In this document: positions 40,226-46,141 of the stretch, piece after piece | Numbering within the stretch: position 1 is the stretch's first letter | Layout: every line of letters starts with the position of its first letter | Source of the DNA: Myxococcota bacterium | GTDB taxonomy: Bacteria > Myxococcota_A > UBA9160 > SMWR01 | Direction: 5' to 3' | NCBI GenBank assembly: GCA_039030075.1 | Contig: JBCCEW010000005.1 | Span: 62,001 to 126,000 of the forward strand | Length of the DNA stretch: 64,000 bases | Made by a program: the position numbers and the translations under genes | The notes under the pieces: generated by a model | The model's input: only the letters and a program-made list of their open reading frames with translations | The model's database searches: none | Told to the model about the DNA's origin: nothing

Positions 40226-40798
40226 ATGCGGCGCATCCTCGTTTGTCTCGTCTTGCTGCTGCCCGGTGGGGCGCTGGCCGACATCACCCAGCAGATCGAC
40301 TTCACCTTCAACGTGTCGGCGAGCGCTCCCCAGACCCCGATCAGCGGATCGATCCAGGTCCTGGCGGACGAGACCAACAACAACCTGCCGACGGCGATCC
40401 TGTCGATCGATCTGACGATCGATGGGAACGTCTACGCGGTGGGCGACGTGGGCATCTCGGCCTCTGGCTCGACGGCGACGATCGGGGGGCTGTTGAACGG
40501 GCCCGAGATCGTGGCGAGTGGGGGACACGACTTCGGGATCACCTACAACGCGTCGACGGGGGCGCCCTCGTTCTTCCCCTTCACATTCGCGACGCCGACT
40601 TCGGGACCCTGGCAGAGCATTCCGCCCGTGCCCGAGTTCACGATCACGACGATCTCGAGCCCCGCACCCGTCCCGAGTCTGCGCCCGTGGGCGATCAACG
40701 TGTTGGCGGCACTCGCCGTCTTCCTGCTCGGACGCAGCCTGCTGCAGACGTTCCGCGACGACGACGCCGCGTCCGAGGAGCCGAGAACCGAGCGCTAG
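40226..40798 (+). CDS. Exported protein with IPTL-like sorting tail
   Basis: This 190-residue protein has a signal peptide (RRILVCLVLLLPGGALA). A Thr/Ser-rich beta ectodomain follows. The tail VPSLRPWAINVLAALAVFLLGRSL plus an acidic/basic end resembles IPTL-type sorting signals more than PEP-CTERM. A hairpin and a strong GGAGG site precede the ATG. Its stop TAG lies in CTAG (40795-40798), shared with the facing SnoaL-like gene. Confidence 0.7.
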   Translation: MRRILVCLVLLLPGGALADITQQIDFTFNVSASAPQTPISGSIQVLADETNNNLPTAILSIDLTIDGNVYAVGDVGISASGSTATIGGLLNGPEIVASGGHDFGITYNASTGAPSFFPFTFATPTSGPWQSIPPVPEFTITTISSPAPVPSLRPWAINVLAALAVFLLGRSLLQTFRDDDAASEEPRTER

Positions 40799-41355
40799 GC
40801 CTCGATGTCGGCGATCTCCGAGAACCAGTCGTACTCGCTCGCGCGAGTCCAGCCCGGCATCTTCGAGCCCTTCTTCATGCGCTCGAGCATTTTCTCGGTG
40901 AGCTGACCGTTCTGGGCCATCGCGCCGAACACGGCGCCGGCGCAGGCGTGGTCGAAGAAGTCGCGCTGCCAGGCCCACTTGAAGTCGCCCCCGTAGCGGA
41001 ACCAGGATCCGCCGGTGCCGCGGATCTCGTAGTTCACCCCGTCGGGGTCCTTGACGGGGGCGACCTGGCGCCAGATGCCGATGAACTCGGCCTTCTGATC
41101 ATCGATCAGGGTGCGGACGTAGGGGTAGGTCCAGTGCTCGAGGCCGGCCATCTCGGTGCCGAAGGCCCATTCCTTGATCTGCTGCTTGCCGCGCGCGACG
41201 AAGTCCCAGTTGGGACCGGTGGTCCAGGTATAGACGGCGTCGTCGGTGAAGAACTCGGCCATCGGCGACCAGTCACCGGTGCGACCGGCCTCGTTGTTGG
41301 CGGCGACCCAGCGGTCGACCATCTCTTGCAGCTCTTCGCGGGGAAACGCGGGCAT
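40795..41355 (-). CDS. SnoaL-like protein, partner of the CYP51-ferredoxin gene
   Basis: This 186-residue NTF2-fold protein has LQEMVDRWVAANNEAGRTGDWSPMAEFFTDDAVYTW as the helical half and YEIRGTGGSWFRYGGDFKWAWQRDFFDHACAG in the sheet. The ATG at 41355 is 2 bp downstream of the P450 stop (41358), so the two are coupled. Similar small proteins are found with P450s and steroid enzymes, for example ketosteroid isomerase relatives; that function here is an inference. Confidence 0.75.
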   Translation of the reverse strand: MPAFPREELQEMVDRWVAANNEAGRTGDWSPMAEFFTDDAVYTWTTGPNWDFVARGKQQIKEWAFGTEMAGLEHWTYPYVRTLIDDQKAEFIGIWRQVAPVKDPDGVNYEIRGTGGSWFRYGGDFKWAWQRDFFDHACAGAVFGAMAQNGQLTEKMLERMKKGSKMPGWTRASEYDWFSEIADIEA

Positions 41356-41357
41356 CG

Positions 41358-42989
41358 TCAAGACTCCTCGAGGGTGAGTGCCCGGGTCGGGCAGTGTTGG
41401 ACGGCGGTTTCGACCCGGGCGCGCTCGTCGGCGTCCGGGGTTTCCTGCAGCAGGACGACCTTGCGCTCGGCGTCGTCGACGCGAAACACGCCCGGTGCCT
41501 CGGCCATGCAGACGCCGTGGCCCTGGCAGAGGTCGAGGTCGACCGAGACGCGGCAACCGCCTGCCGGGACGTCGGAACGCGACGCGGCTCTCGCGGCCGC
41601 AGCCGTCTGTGTCGCCTTGCGGCGCCGGTAGCGCACGCGACAGGGCTGCTCGAGCTGCACGACCATCTTCGAGTGGTCGTTGCGGTAGGACGCGGGCGGC
41701 TGGGCCAGCTCGAACTCGTAGGCGCGTAGCAGGTCGCTGAAGATCGCCTTCAGCTGCATCATCGCAAAGGCCGAACCGACGCAGCGGTGGCGGCCGGCGC
41801 CGAAGGGGATGTAGGCGAAGAGCTGCTTGTCTTCCTCCCGGCCTTTCTCGTAGCGCCCCGGGTCGAAGCGGTCGGGATCGGGGAAGCACTCGGGCATCCG
41901 GTTCGATACCGCGGGCGACACACCGACGAGCTTTCCCGCAGGCACCGTCCAGCCCTTGTAGTGGAAATCGTGGACCACCTTCCGCATCAGGATGATCAGC
42001 GGCGGGTGGAGTCGCAGCGCTTCCTGGATGGCGTTCTCGAGCTGGGGGATCTCGCGCAGGGCCTGGTAGCTGATCTCGCGGCCGTCGGCGTAGAGCTCGT
42101 CGAGCTCTTCCACGACCGGCTTCAGGGTGTGCGGGTTGCGCAGGAGCTCGATCAGCGTCCAGGCCGCCGTGCCCGAGGTGGTGTGGTGACCGGCGAACAT
42201 CAGCGAGATGAACATCCCGGTGATCTGATCGACCGTGTAGCGGGGCTGGCCATCCTTGTCCTTCAGGCCGAGCAACACGTCGAAGAGCTCGGGCTTCGTG
42301 TCGGGGTCGTTGCGACGTCGCTCGAACACACCGGTCAAGAGCTCGACCAGGCGACGCCGCGCGCGATCGCGCTGCCAGAAGACCGGCAGCGGAAGGTGGG
42401 GGTTCACGTAGGCGAGGGCGTCGGTGCCCTTCTCGAGTTCGTAGAAGGTGGCGTAGTACTCGTCGGTGAGTTCTTCGCGGAACTCGGGCCCGATCAGACA
42501 CGCGCTCGAGGTGTACATGGTGAGCTCGGAGAAGAAGTCGAGCAGATCGACCTCCCCCGCATCTCCGAGCCGCTCCAGCATGCGCTGGGTCTCGCGCGAG
42601 ATGGTGTCGGCGTGGCCCTTCATGTACTCGGCGCGCAGGGACTGGTTGCGGAGCGCTTGCTTGCGCTGCTCCGGAGTCGCGTCGAAGACGACGCCCTCTC
42701 CGAATACCGGTGTCATGAATGGGTAGGCGGCGGCCTGGTCGAGCTGCTCGTCGGGCGCGCGGAAGAAGGCCTCCTGGGCCTCTTCGCCCATCAGCATCAC
42801 CACCCGGTTGCCCGCGAAGTCGATCTCGCCGATCTCCCCGAGCTCGTCGCGCACGCGCTGGAAGAGCTCGATCGGACGCTTGCGCAGCTCGAGCAGGTGC
42901 CCGAGCAGCGGCCAGTGGCGCGACAGGGGGGGCGGCGCGGCACCGCCTGCAGCGTCGGTGGGCGGCGGGGAAGCGGCGGCAGAGGCCAT
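41358..42989 (-). CDS. CYP51-type cytochrome P450 fused to a [3Fe-4S] ferredoxin
   Basis: This 543-residue fusion has residues about 20-460 as a P450. The I-helix AGHHTTSGTAAWTLIEL and heme loop FGAGRHRCVGSAFAMMQ (Cys near 403) match bacterial sterol 14-alpha-demethylases. After an Arg/Ala-rich linker, residues about 480-543 form a single-cluster ferredoxin with C-x5-C (LCQGHGVC) and CPTRAL. Fused CYP51-ferredoxin is known from Methylococcus capsulatus. It would remove the sterol 14-methyl group with built-in electron transfer. GAGGA precedes the ATG. The operon continues with a SnoaL-like gene and diverges from TetR. Confidence 0.85.
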   Translation of the reverse strand: MASAAASPPPTDAAGGAAPPPLSRHWPLLGHLLELRKRPIELFQRVRDELGEIGEIDFAGNRVVMLMGEEAQEAFFRAPDEQLDQAAAYPFMTPVFGEGVVFDATPEQRKQALRNQSLRAEYMKGHADTISRETQRMLERLGDAGEVDLLDFFSELTMYTSSACLIGPEFREELTDEYYATFYELEKGTDALAYVNPHLPLPVFWQRDRARRRLVELLTGVFERRRNDPDTKPELFDVLLGLKDKDGQPRYTVDQITGMFISLMFAGHHTTSGTAAWTLIELLRNPHTLKPVVEELDELYADGREISYQALREIPQLENAIQEALRLHPPLIILMRKVVHDFHYKGWTVPAGKLVGVSPAVSNRMPECFPDPDRFDPGRYEKGREEDKQLFAYIPFGAGRHRCVGSAFAMMQLKAIFSDLLRAYEFELAQPPASYRNDHSKMVVQLEQPCRVRYRRRKATQTAAAARAASRSDVPAGGCRVSVDLDLCQGHGVCMAEAPGVFRVDDAERKVVLLQETPDADERARVETAVQHCPTRALTLEES

Positions 42990-43076: not shown

Positions 43077-43139
43077 CTGCGGCGTTCGGAGGGCCCGGGT
43101 CGGGCCCGGGAGGCCGTCATCGCCGCTACCAAGCCCGCC

Positions 43140-43745
43140 ATGCGCGTGACGGCTCCGCCGCGCCGGCGACGCAGTCACGCCGAACGCACGGCGGAGACGC
43201 GGGGCCGCGTGCTCGCTGCCGTCGTCGCCTGCATCGCCGAACTCGGCTTCCAGCGCACCACCGGCGGCGAGATCGCGCGCCGCGCGGGCGTGAGCTGGGG
43301 AGCGATCCAGCATCACTTCGGCGACAAGAACGGGGTGCTCGCTGCGGCGCTCGAAGCGTCGTTCGCGCGCTTCGCCGAGGCCCTCGGTGAACCGGATGCG
43401 ACGGGCAGCGTTTCCGAGCGGGTCGACACCTTCGTCGACCGCGCCTGGCACCACTTCCGCAGCGATCACTACCGCACCACCTTCGAGATCCTGCTGAACC
43501 TGCCGCCCGAGCTGGACGCGCGCTGGGCGGTCGGCACACTGCGCACCTGGAGCCGGATCTGGCAGGACTTCTTCCCCGAGAGTCGGCTCTCGAAACGCGA
43601 GACGACCGACCTGATGCACTACGCGACGTCGGTGCTCTCGGGCCTCGCCACGGCGAACGTGCTCGAGGGCCGCAGCCCGCAGGTCGCCGCCCGCAGTCTC
43701 GCCTTCTTGAAGGACACGTTGGTCCGCGAGCTGCAGCAGCGTTGA
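43140..43745 (+). CDS. TetR-family transcriptional regulator
   Basis: This 201-residue protein has an N-terminal helix-turn-helix: ETRGRVLAAVVACIAELGFQRTTGGEIARRAGVSWGAIQHHFGDKNGVLAAAL. The C-terminal helical ligand domain holds Trp/Phe-rich segments. It is divergent from the CYP51-ferredoxin operon and probably controls it through the site at 43038-43067. No clear Shine-Dalgarno sequence precedes the ATG. Confidence 0.88.
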   Translation: MRVTAPPRRRRSHAERTAETRGRVLAAVVACIAELGFQRTTGGEIARRAGVSWGAIQHHFGDKNGVLAAALEASFARFAEALGEPDATGSVSERVDTFVDRAWHHFRSDHYRTTFEILLNLPPELDARWAVGTLRTWSRIWQDFFPESRLSKRETTDLMHYATSVLSGLATANVLEGRSPQVAARSLAFLKDTLVRELQQR

Positions 43746-43774
43746 ACGCCGCGGGCGGATCGACCCGGCCGGCG

Positions 43775-44448
43775 CTACTGGGCCCAGCCGCCGCTGAATG
43801 GCCGACGAAGAAGTCGCTCTCGTCCGAAGCGAGGAAGAGCGCAAAGAGGGCGTCTTCTCGCGGAGTCGCGAGTCGCCCCAACGGCACGTGGCGGTCGAGG
43901 AGTTCGCGGAAGGTGTCGGTCGCGACGAACTCGGGCGGAAAGTAGGCCGGGTTCTCGACCCAGTTCTGGGCGATCAGATTGATCTGCACGTTGTGTCGCG
44001 CGGCCTCGGTGCCCGCGTTGCGGACGTAGCCGACCTGAGCCGAGCGCGCCGCGGCATAGGCCGACACGCCTTCGAGCGCCTTCAGCCCCGTCGCGCTTCC
44101 GAACACGACGATCTTCCCCGCGCGTCGCTCGATCATCTGCGGCAGCACCGCGCGGGTCAGCCGATGCAGCGGATGCACCATGGTCTCGAACATGTCGAGC
44201 CAGATCGTGTCGTCGAGGTCCGTCACCCCGACGCCCAGATGCGCGGGCGCGGCCAGGTTCGCGACGAGCACGTCGACCCGACCGGCCTCGGCGACGAGCT
44301 CCGCGGGAGCGTCGGCGGGTCGGGGATCGCGCGCATCGGCGATCACCTCGGCGCCGTGCTCGCGAAACAGGGGGACGGTGGCCGGTCCCATGTAGCTCTC
44401 GGCGCAAGTCACCAGCACCCGCTTCCCTGCCAGGCGTCGATCGGTCAT
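43775..44448 (-). CDS. Halohydrin dehalogenase (HHDH) with a frameshifted 3' end
   Basis: This is an SDR-like protein with the defining halohydrin dehalogenase motifs. T14-x4-Y19-x-G21 (TCAESYMG) replaces the Gly-rich cofactor loop, and Ser118-x12-Tyr131-x3-Arg135 is the Ser-Tyr-Arg catalytic triad, instead of the Tyr-x3-Lys of ordinary SDRs. NWVENPAYFPPEF resembles the halide-site loop. HHDHs convert vicinal haloalcohols to epoxides without a cofactor. After DFFVGH the frame breaks near 43798; the next frame supplies the expected FSGGWAQ and TAG at 43775. Without correction the frame runs to 43126 across TetR. It is 19 bp after the histidine kinase. Confidence 0.8.
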
Positions 44449-44467: not shown

Positions 44468-46141
44468 TCACACGGCGTCCGCGGCCGGCCAGCTGGTGGA
44501 GAAGCGGGCGCCCTGGCCCGGCTCGGACTCGACCCGCACCTCGCCGCCGTGTCCGGTGACGATCCCGTGGACGATCGCGAGGCCCAGGCCGGTGCCGGTG
44601 CGCTTGCGCGAGTAGAACGGATCGAAGATGCGGTCGCGGGTTTCGGCGTCCATGCCGGCGCCATCGTCGACGATCTCGATCTCGATCTGGCGTCCGCGAT
44701 CGATGGTGTGTGCGGCGATCGTCACCCGACCCTCGCCCGCCGTGGCATCGCGCGCATTGAGGAGGAGGTTCGAGAACACCCGCTCCAACTGCGTTGGGTC
44801 CGCATAGACCCGAAGCCCAGGCTCGGTGACGTCCACCCGGACGGCGAGCGAGCGCGGCAGCTGGGGTCGCATCGTCTGGATCAAGTCGTCGAGGAAACCG
44901 CGCACCGAGACCTCGCTGCGGGCCCGGGGAGCGGCCTGGGCGAAGTCGAGGAGGTCCTGGGTGAGGTTGCTGCAGTACTCCGCTGCGTGCTCGAGGTCTG
45001 CGAGCATCGCCTGGCGGGAGTCCGTCGGCTCGAAGGACTCGCGCAACACCGATGCGTTCCCCAGCACTGCCGTCAGCTTGTTGTTGAAGTCGTGGGCGAC
45101 GCCGCCGGCCAGGCGACCGAGGGTTTCGAGTCGTCGCGAGCGGCCGAGCTGCTCCTGCAAGCGGCGCTCCTCGGTGACATCGGCGAGGAGCCACAGCGAA
45201 CCCATCGGTTCGCCGTCGCGCCCGTGGACCGGGCGCACGTCGGAGACGACGAGGCGTCCGTCTTCGAGCTGTAGCTCCCGCGGTTCGAGGGCGAGGGGCG
45301 ATTTCTTTGCCGGGAGGGCCGCGAAGATGGCGCGGCTGGGATCGTGCAGGAGCTGCGCGAGGCGCCGATGCAGGGGCTCGAGGCTTCCGCCGAGGAACGC
45401 GGTCGGATCATCGAGGCCGAGGAGCTTCGCAAACACCGGGTTCACGGTTTGCACCCGTCCGCGCGAGTCGCAGAGCACCAGACCGAAGGGGGTGGAGCCG
45501 ATCAACGCCTCGAGCGAGGCGCGCGAGCGTTCGGACGCCTGTTCGAGGCGGATCAACAGGCAGCCCGCCTGGATGCCGCCGAGCAGGATGCCGCCGAGGA
45601 GCCACGCGAACAGGCCATGGGTCGGTGGGGCGCCGATGACCTTGCCGTAGGCGTAGGCGGCGGAAACGAGGGGGATCGAAAGCGTGCCCCAGGCGATGGC
45701 GCGATCGCACTTCGGCGAGTTACCGAGTCGCGCGCCGCGCCAGACGAGCCCGGCGGCGAAGCCGAGGGCGAGCGCGATCACGGCCGTGCCGAGCACCTGG
45801 GTGGCGCCCTCGGTGAGGAAGGGCTGCAACACGATCCGCAGCAGGGCCACGCTGATCGCTGTCCCCCAGAGCCACTCGGGGACCGGGACGCCGCGATAGC
45901 GCGCGGCGCCTGCGATGGTCAGGGCACAGTAGGCGGTGGCGAGAATCGGGTAGCCGGGACGCAGCCACGGCTGGACCTCGCTCAACGTGACGCACAGACC
46001 CGAGAGCCACAGGCACACCCACCCGAGTGCCCAGTCGCGGCCACCACTGTTGCGACCGACCCGATCCATCACGATCGCCAGGATGCCCAGGAAGACCAGG
46101 CCGCCGACCAGGATCGCGGAAGCGCCGAGCACGGGTTGCAT
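44468..46141 (-). CDS. Membrane sensor histidine kinase with PAS domain
   Basis: This 557-residue protein has several N-terminal membrane helices (about 1-200). A PAS-like domain follows (LEALIGSTPFGLVLCDSRGRVQTVNPVFAKLLGL, about 215-320). A HisKA helix with phospho-His is in GGVAHDFNNKLTAVLGNA, and an HATPase domain has the N-box NLLLNARDA, DDGAGMD and the G-box TGTGLGLAIV. No response regulator gene lies next to it. It precedes the HHDH gene by 19 bp, so co-transcription is possible. Confidence 0.87.
   Translation of the reverse strand: MQPVLGASAILVGGLVFLGILAIVMDRVGRNSGGRDWALGWVCLWLSGLCVTLSEVQPWLRPGYPILATAYCALTIAGAARYRGVPVPEWLWGTAISVALLRIVLQPFLTEGATQVLGTAVIALALGFAAGLVWRGARLGNSPKCDRAIAWGTLSIPLVSAAYAYGKVIGAPPTHGLFAWLLGGILLGGIQAGCLLIRLEQASERSRASLEALIGSTPFGLVLCDSRGRVQTVNPVFAKLLGLDDPTAFLGGSLEPLHRRLAQLLHDPSRAIFAALPAKKSPLALEPRELQLEDGRLVVSDVRPVHGRDGEPMGSLWLLADVTEERRLQEQLGRSRRLETLGRLAGGVAHDFNNKLTAVLGNASVLRESFEPTDSRQAMLADLEHAAEYCSNLTQDLLDFAQAAPRARSEVSVRGFLDDLIQTMRPQLPRSLAVRVDVTEPGLRVYADPTQLERVFSNLLLNARDATAGEGRVTIAAHTIDRGRQIEIEIVDDGAGMDAETRDRIFDPFYSRKRTGTGLGLAIVHGIVTGHGGEVRVESEPGQGARFSTSWPAADAV

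Follow-up and report, generated by a model that had tools for sequence, protein, structure and literature searches.

A B-type halohydrin dehalogenase gene in a Myxococcota genome, its assembled copy likely disabled by a 10-bp deletion

The window, i.e., the 64,000-nucleotide stretch of a Myxococcota genome analysed here, very probably carries a B-type halohydrin dehalogenase (HHDH) gene of the HheB lineage whose assembled copy is broken by a recent 10-bp deletion, with a product that is likely unstable or inactive. The gene is part of a minus-strand open reading frame from 44664 to 43126, in which an internal ATG at 44448 opens MTDRRLAGKRVLVTCAESYMGPATV and gives an SDR-like protein of 216 residues before the lesion. 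An initial annotation had placed an HHDH at 43775-44448; these coordinates are right, with the minus strand as coding strand and ATG 44448 as start. The features that define the family are as follows.

43801..44448, minus strand: HheB-type halohydrin dehalogenase body, residues 1-216 (MTDRRLAGKR...SDESDFFVG)
44386..44409, minus strand: motif 1, T14-x4-Y19-x-G21 (TCAESYMG, residues 14-21), from a regular-expression check
44044..44097, minus strand: motif 2, S118-x12-Y131-x3-R135 (SATGLKALEGVSAYAAAR, residues 118-135), the catalytic triad
43927..43953, minus strand: segment NPAYFPPEF, residues 166-174, aligned with NKEYFWPER of HheB

The published HHDH patterns are T-x4-F/Y-x-G and S-x12-Y-x3-R (PMC11976700). 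The window protein fits both exactly, and S118, Y131 and R135 are numbered as the initial annotation had claimed. In contrast, the TGxxxGxG loop and the Tyr-x3-Lys of classical NAD(P)-dependent SDRs (e.g., FabG) are absent, with the HHDH motifs in their place; motif 1, at the position of the SDR TGxxxGxG, lines the pocket for the nucleophile (halide). The previously noticed NPAYFPPEF segment is also present and aligns, besides its HheB counterpart, with NPTYFPEET of HheD2. Here, the NPTYFPxE loop of HheD2 and HheD8 is closer to the window's loop than that of HheB is.

Within a phmmer search, the best solved relative, at a similarity that chance would not produce, is HheB from Corynebacterium sp. 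N-1074 (PDB 4ZD6, 5B12; E 1.3e-78 and 61% identity over the body for 4ZD6), which aligns end to end up to residue 216 and resembles the window protein in both motifs, in clade and in length to this residue. The next solved matches are HheD2 (7B73; E 1.8e-62) and HheD8 (8XXB; E 5.5e-57), both about 50% identical and with the same motifs. The first protein after this HHDH trio is 6a41 (E 1.2e-23), itself annotated as a dehalogenase, while FabG-type SDRs score E 1.5e-22 or weaker. HheA and HheG rank low in both the sequence and the fold search. HheC from Agrobacterium radiobacter AD1 (PDB 1PWX) shares the catalytic triad motif and serves as the mechanism model, but its sequence is distant from the window protein.

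For the phylogenetic placement, 47 relatives were taken from genome contigs, about 40 of them at 51-79% identity. Both HHDH motifs are kept in all relatives checked (43/43). The maximum-likelihood tree comprises the relatives together with HheB, HheC, HheD2, HheD8 (8XXB) and seven SDRs, i.e., its HHDH references are of types B, C and D. The window falls into a 12-row clade with HheB (support 99/96), which also takes in Myxococcota, Alphaproteobacteria and Gammaproteobacteria loci, and the HheD pair lies outside of this clade. The SDRs split off at 99/97, i.e., the window protein does not group with cofactor-binding SDRs. Since the HheC branch is very long (6.19), its position was given no weight. 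Three HHDH-like loci from the window's own order (L061, L062 and L063 from genomes G067, G042 and G048; 48-49% identical, both motifs) form a deeper branch outside the HheB/HheD group.

The AlphaFold model (mean pLDDT 85) gives a similar picture. The fold search is topped by HheB (5b12/4zd6, Z 31.8/31.5, 1.7-1.9 A over 223 residues), which is also the top Foldseek match (E 9e-25, 61% identity). HheD follows with Z 30, and NAD(P)-dependent SDRs, which share the overall Rossmann fold, reach about Z 26. That is, tree placement and fold comparison as well as motifs and sequence search support that the window gene belongs to the HHDH lineage and is of B-type, and the annotated family is borne out.

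Only the profile libraries point elsewhere. Among the matches listed, Pfam and NCBIfam give generic SDR models, which lie far under the NCBIfam cut-offs, and no HHDH model. This would suit an ordinary SDR that binds a cofactor and only looks like an HHDH; since no HHDH model is among these matches, the two libraries do not discriminate between HHDH and SDR. Given that TGxxxGxG and YxxxK are absent, that the E-values of solved HHDHs are over 50 orders of magnitude better than those of FabG-type SDRs and that the tree excludes the SDRs, such an identity is almost certainly wrong, and we rejected it on sequence search and tree.

The B-type gene is, however, incomplete at its end. The respective features are listed below.

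43795..43804, minus strand: 10-bp deletion site, window GTC-GGC-CA-TTC versus relatives GTN-GGN-CAR-NNN-NNN-CCN-TTY
43775..43801, minus strand: out-of-frame remnant of the family C-terminus, PFSGGWAQ plus stop
43126..43800, minus strand: frame read beyond the deletion, 224 residues, for the most part antisense to the TetR gene
43140..43745, plus strand: TetR-family regulator, convergent with the dehalogenase

A strict DNA pattern, with loci fetched twice counted once, identified 39 distinct relative loci with one common spacing around VGQ-x-x-P-F, from which exactly 10 bp are missing in the window. Where the end of a relative is complete, it reads FFVGQAIPFSGGWAQ or a close variant followed by a stop. 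HheB keeps the 11 C-terminal residues that the window gene loses through the frameshift; judged by the intact C-terminus (F)FVGQ-x-x-P-F-x-G-G-W, the window gene is thus not a full-length HheB-type gene. The stop of the remnant ends at 43775, i.e., at the lower coordinate initially given, but this TAG is in a frame different from that of the dehalogenase body, which reads HSAAAGPSSAGR... past the lesion and runs on to 43126. What had been an aside on a "frame-corrected protein" is therefore the key caveat. It had also been concluded that the gene implies dehalogenation of haloalcohols in this organism, which does not follow because the assembled gene is frameshifted 11 residues before its end.

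By analogy to HheB and HheC, Ser118 of the inherited enzyme would hold the hydroxyl of the haloalcohol, Tyr131, with its pKa lowered by Arg135, would remove the proton, and the resulting alkoxide would displace the neighbouring halide to give the epoxide. The halide would sit in a pocket whose lining comes from motif 1 and a loop at about residues 161-174, and no nicotinamide cofactor would take part. In the assembled sequence, the recent deletion has taken out Gln-x-x and a part of the Pro codon and shifted the frame, such that the product lacks the family's last 11 residues and carries an antisense-encoded tail instead. While motifs, homology, tree placement, the deletion in the assembly and the lack of a conserved context are observed, we infer the catalysis by the inherited enzyme, its loss here and that living populations of the organism carry the deletion.

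In SDRs, the C-terminal end provides the final core-sheet strand and helps to build the tetramer, and its loss should thus matter. In HheC, the C-terminus is extended and reaches into the neighbouring subunit (PMC4989007). The AlphaFold model of the window protein has pLDDT values below 50 nearly throughout residues 215-236, while the model of an intact Myxococcota relative (L059) shows a mean of 81 over residues 211-220 and of 55 for the last six. This contrast lends modest support to a disordered tail in the window protein, whose model tail is superposable on the HheB C-terminus at low confidence. Due to the loss of the last 11 residues and the antisense-encoded tail in their stead, the assembled product would most likely be unstable or inactive. 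Some activity is conceivable, since all active-site residues are upstream of the lesion.

This position of the catalytic residues, together with the frame being open to 43126, could also be taken to mean that the protein works despite its shifted frame, be it by read-through to 440 residues or through recovery of PFSGGWAQ by a -1 frameshift. At the deletion site, such a -1 shift would regain 8 of the 11 lost residues, but three (Q-x-x of the strand) would still be missing, and no standard slippery heptamer was seen there. The 224-residue tail is antisense to TetR and without a Pfam match, and its GC content by codon position (0.69/0.89/0.56) differs from that of the body (0.74/0.46/0.87), i.e., from its base pattern the read-through region does not appear coding-like. 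A functional read-through tail was rejected on the missing Pfam match and the non-coding base composition, and we consider a working shifted protein very unlikely.

HHDH genes are sparse in the phylum, with 9/379 genomes carrying one (the window's own included) and 0/16 among the other genomes of the family. No second intact copy was found in the source genome, whose closest other SDR reaches 34% identity. Among the relatives, L009 (Myxococcota, 69% identity) scores highest in BLAST; it is on a contig of G049, a genome listed in the window's order. The L009 gene (4312-4983) is interrupted near codon 49 by an in-frame TAG, while its C-terminus is intact, and is thus a second damaged copy in the phylum. 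These observations suggest a patchy, dispensable gene. The initial description of HHDHs as a small family with few members in nature no longer holds: dozens were on record by 2016 according to a review (PMC4989007), a more recent paper calls them "a plethora" (PMC11976700), and a single scan here yielded at least about 40 B/D-like HHDH loci.

To date the lesion, we compared the body with five relatives (Nei-Gojobori). Respective values are 0.24-0.29 for dN and 0.76-2.64 for dS, with ratios of 0.11-0.37; dS is near saturation for some pairs, and third-position identity is low. These ratios indicate that the body was under purifying selection until recently. Therefore, the lesion is either recent or an artefact of assembly or strain mixture. 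In the latter case, the gene of the living organism would be intact and a normal HheB-type enzyme would be made from a kinase-dehalogenase transcript. Such an artefact fits a selected body without any other lesion as well as a fragmented source genome (55 contigs, 95% complete, 3.3% contamination) in which strain mixing is possible; and an epoxide product could be used given the genes described below. On the other hand, base-calling errors do not typically take the form of a clean 10-bp loss, the nearest Myxococcota relative is disabled as well, and the absence from the other family members fits a dispensable gene. We thus regard an artefact as the less probable, if still serious, explanation and retain the recent deletion.

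Elsewhere in the source genome, we found epoxide hydrolases of EHN type (two) and LEH type (two or three) and, above cut-off, four haloalkane-dehalogenase-like genes; none of them lies on the window's contig. Halogen or epoxide metabolism of the organism is therefore possible without the window's HHDH gene. According to a survey, hydrolytic dehalogenase genes occur in the Myxococcota order UBA9160 (PMC10919026).

Upstream of the dehalogenase, the window holds a further gene on the same strand.

44468..46141, minus strand: sensor histidine kinase (PAS, HisKA, HATPase_c; hydrophobic N-terminal part)

The kinase ends 19 bp upstream of the dehalogenase, and given this distance and the shared strand, co-transcription is plausible. 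The initial annotation had highlighted this neighbour; the adjacency is confirmed, but a meaningful link is not, since the neighbour is not conserved near relatives. That is, we clustered the ORFs of about 40 relative loci and ran blastp with the kinase, TetR, P450, SnoaL and sulfotransferase proteins of the neighbourhood. The sole kinase match is generic (in L009, 28% identical, about 3 kb away), TetR matches are weak only, and no P450, SnoaL or sulfotransferase matches were found among these ORFs. In seven additional Myxococcota loci, inspected visually on the basis of ORF starts, no shared neighbour is evident. With no matching kinase beside an HHDH in any relative examined, a functional link was dropped, and the sensor kinase looks like a merely local neighbour. 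It is highly improbable that both genes are co-transcribed and functionally linked, i.e., that a sensor of halogenated compounds or epoxides is paired with a cofactor-free SDR-like dehalogenase with an unusually long C-terminus. If true, this would point to HHDHs having a role in physiology besides the breakdown of xenobiotics.

Further genes of the surroundings were recorded. At 41358-42989 (minus strand), the window encodes a cytochrome P450 with a C-terminal single-cluster ferredoxin domain, whose best solved relatives are mycobacterial CYP51 (E 1e-174); the CYP51 chain 6mcw aligns along nearly its whole length, ferredoxin part included. A SnoaL-like (NTF2-fold) protein (40795-41355, minus strand) starts just downstream, and both genes possibly form one operon. 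The source genome also has a squalene/hopene-cyclase-like gene, while the squalene epoxidase family PF08491 gave no match in it. Among the relatives, nine gammaproteobacterial loci (L012, L017, L018, L019, L021, L025, L026, L028, L032) have a glyoxalase-family-like and a glutathione-S-transferase-like protein downstream of the HHDH, both named from their sequence starts only. These neighbours are a possible lead on the physiological role.

The natural role of HHDHs is unsettled, and few are linked to epoxide hydrolases (PMC4989007). The gene studied here adds a B-type HHDH from Myxococcota, where such genes are sparse and sometimes damaged, and intact Myxococcota relatives (e.g., L059, L057) are better enzyme candidates than the window copy. 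An HHDH gene that is patchy, variably placed and sometimes broken fits a dispensable accessory function.
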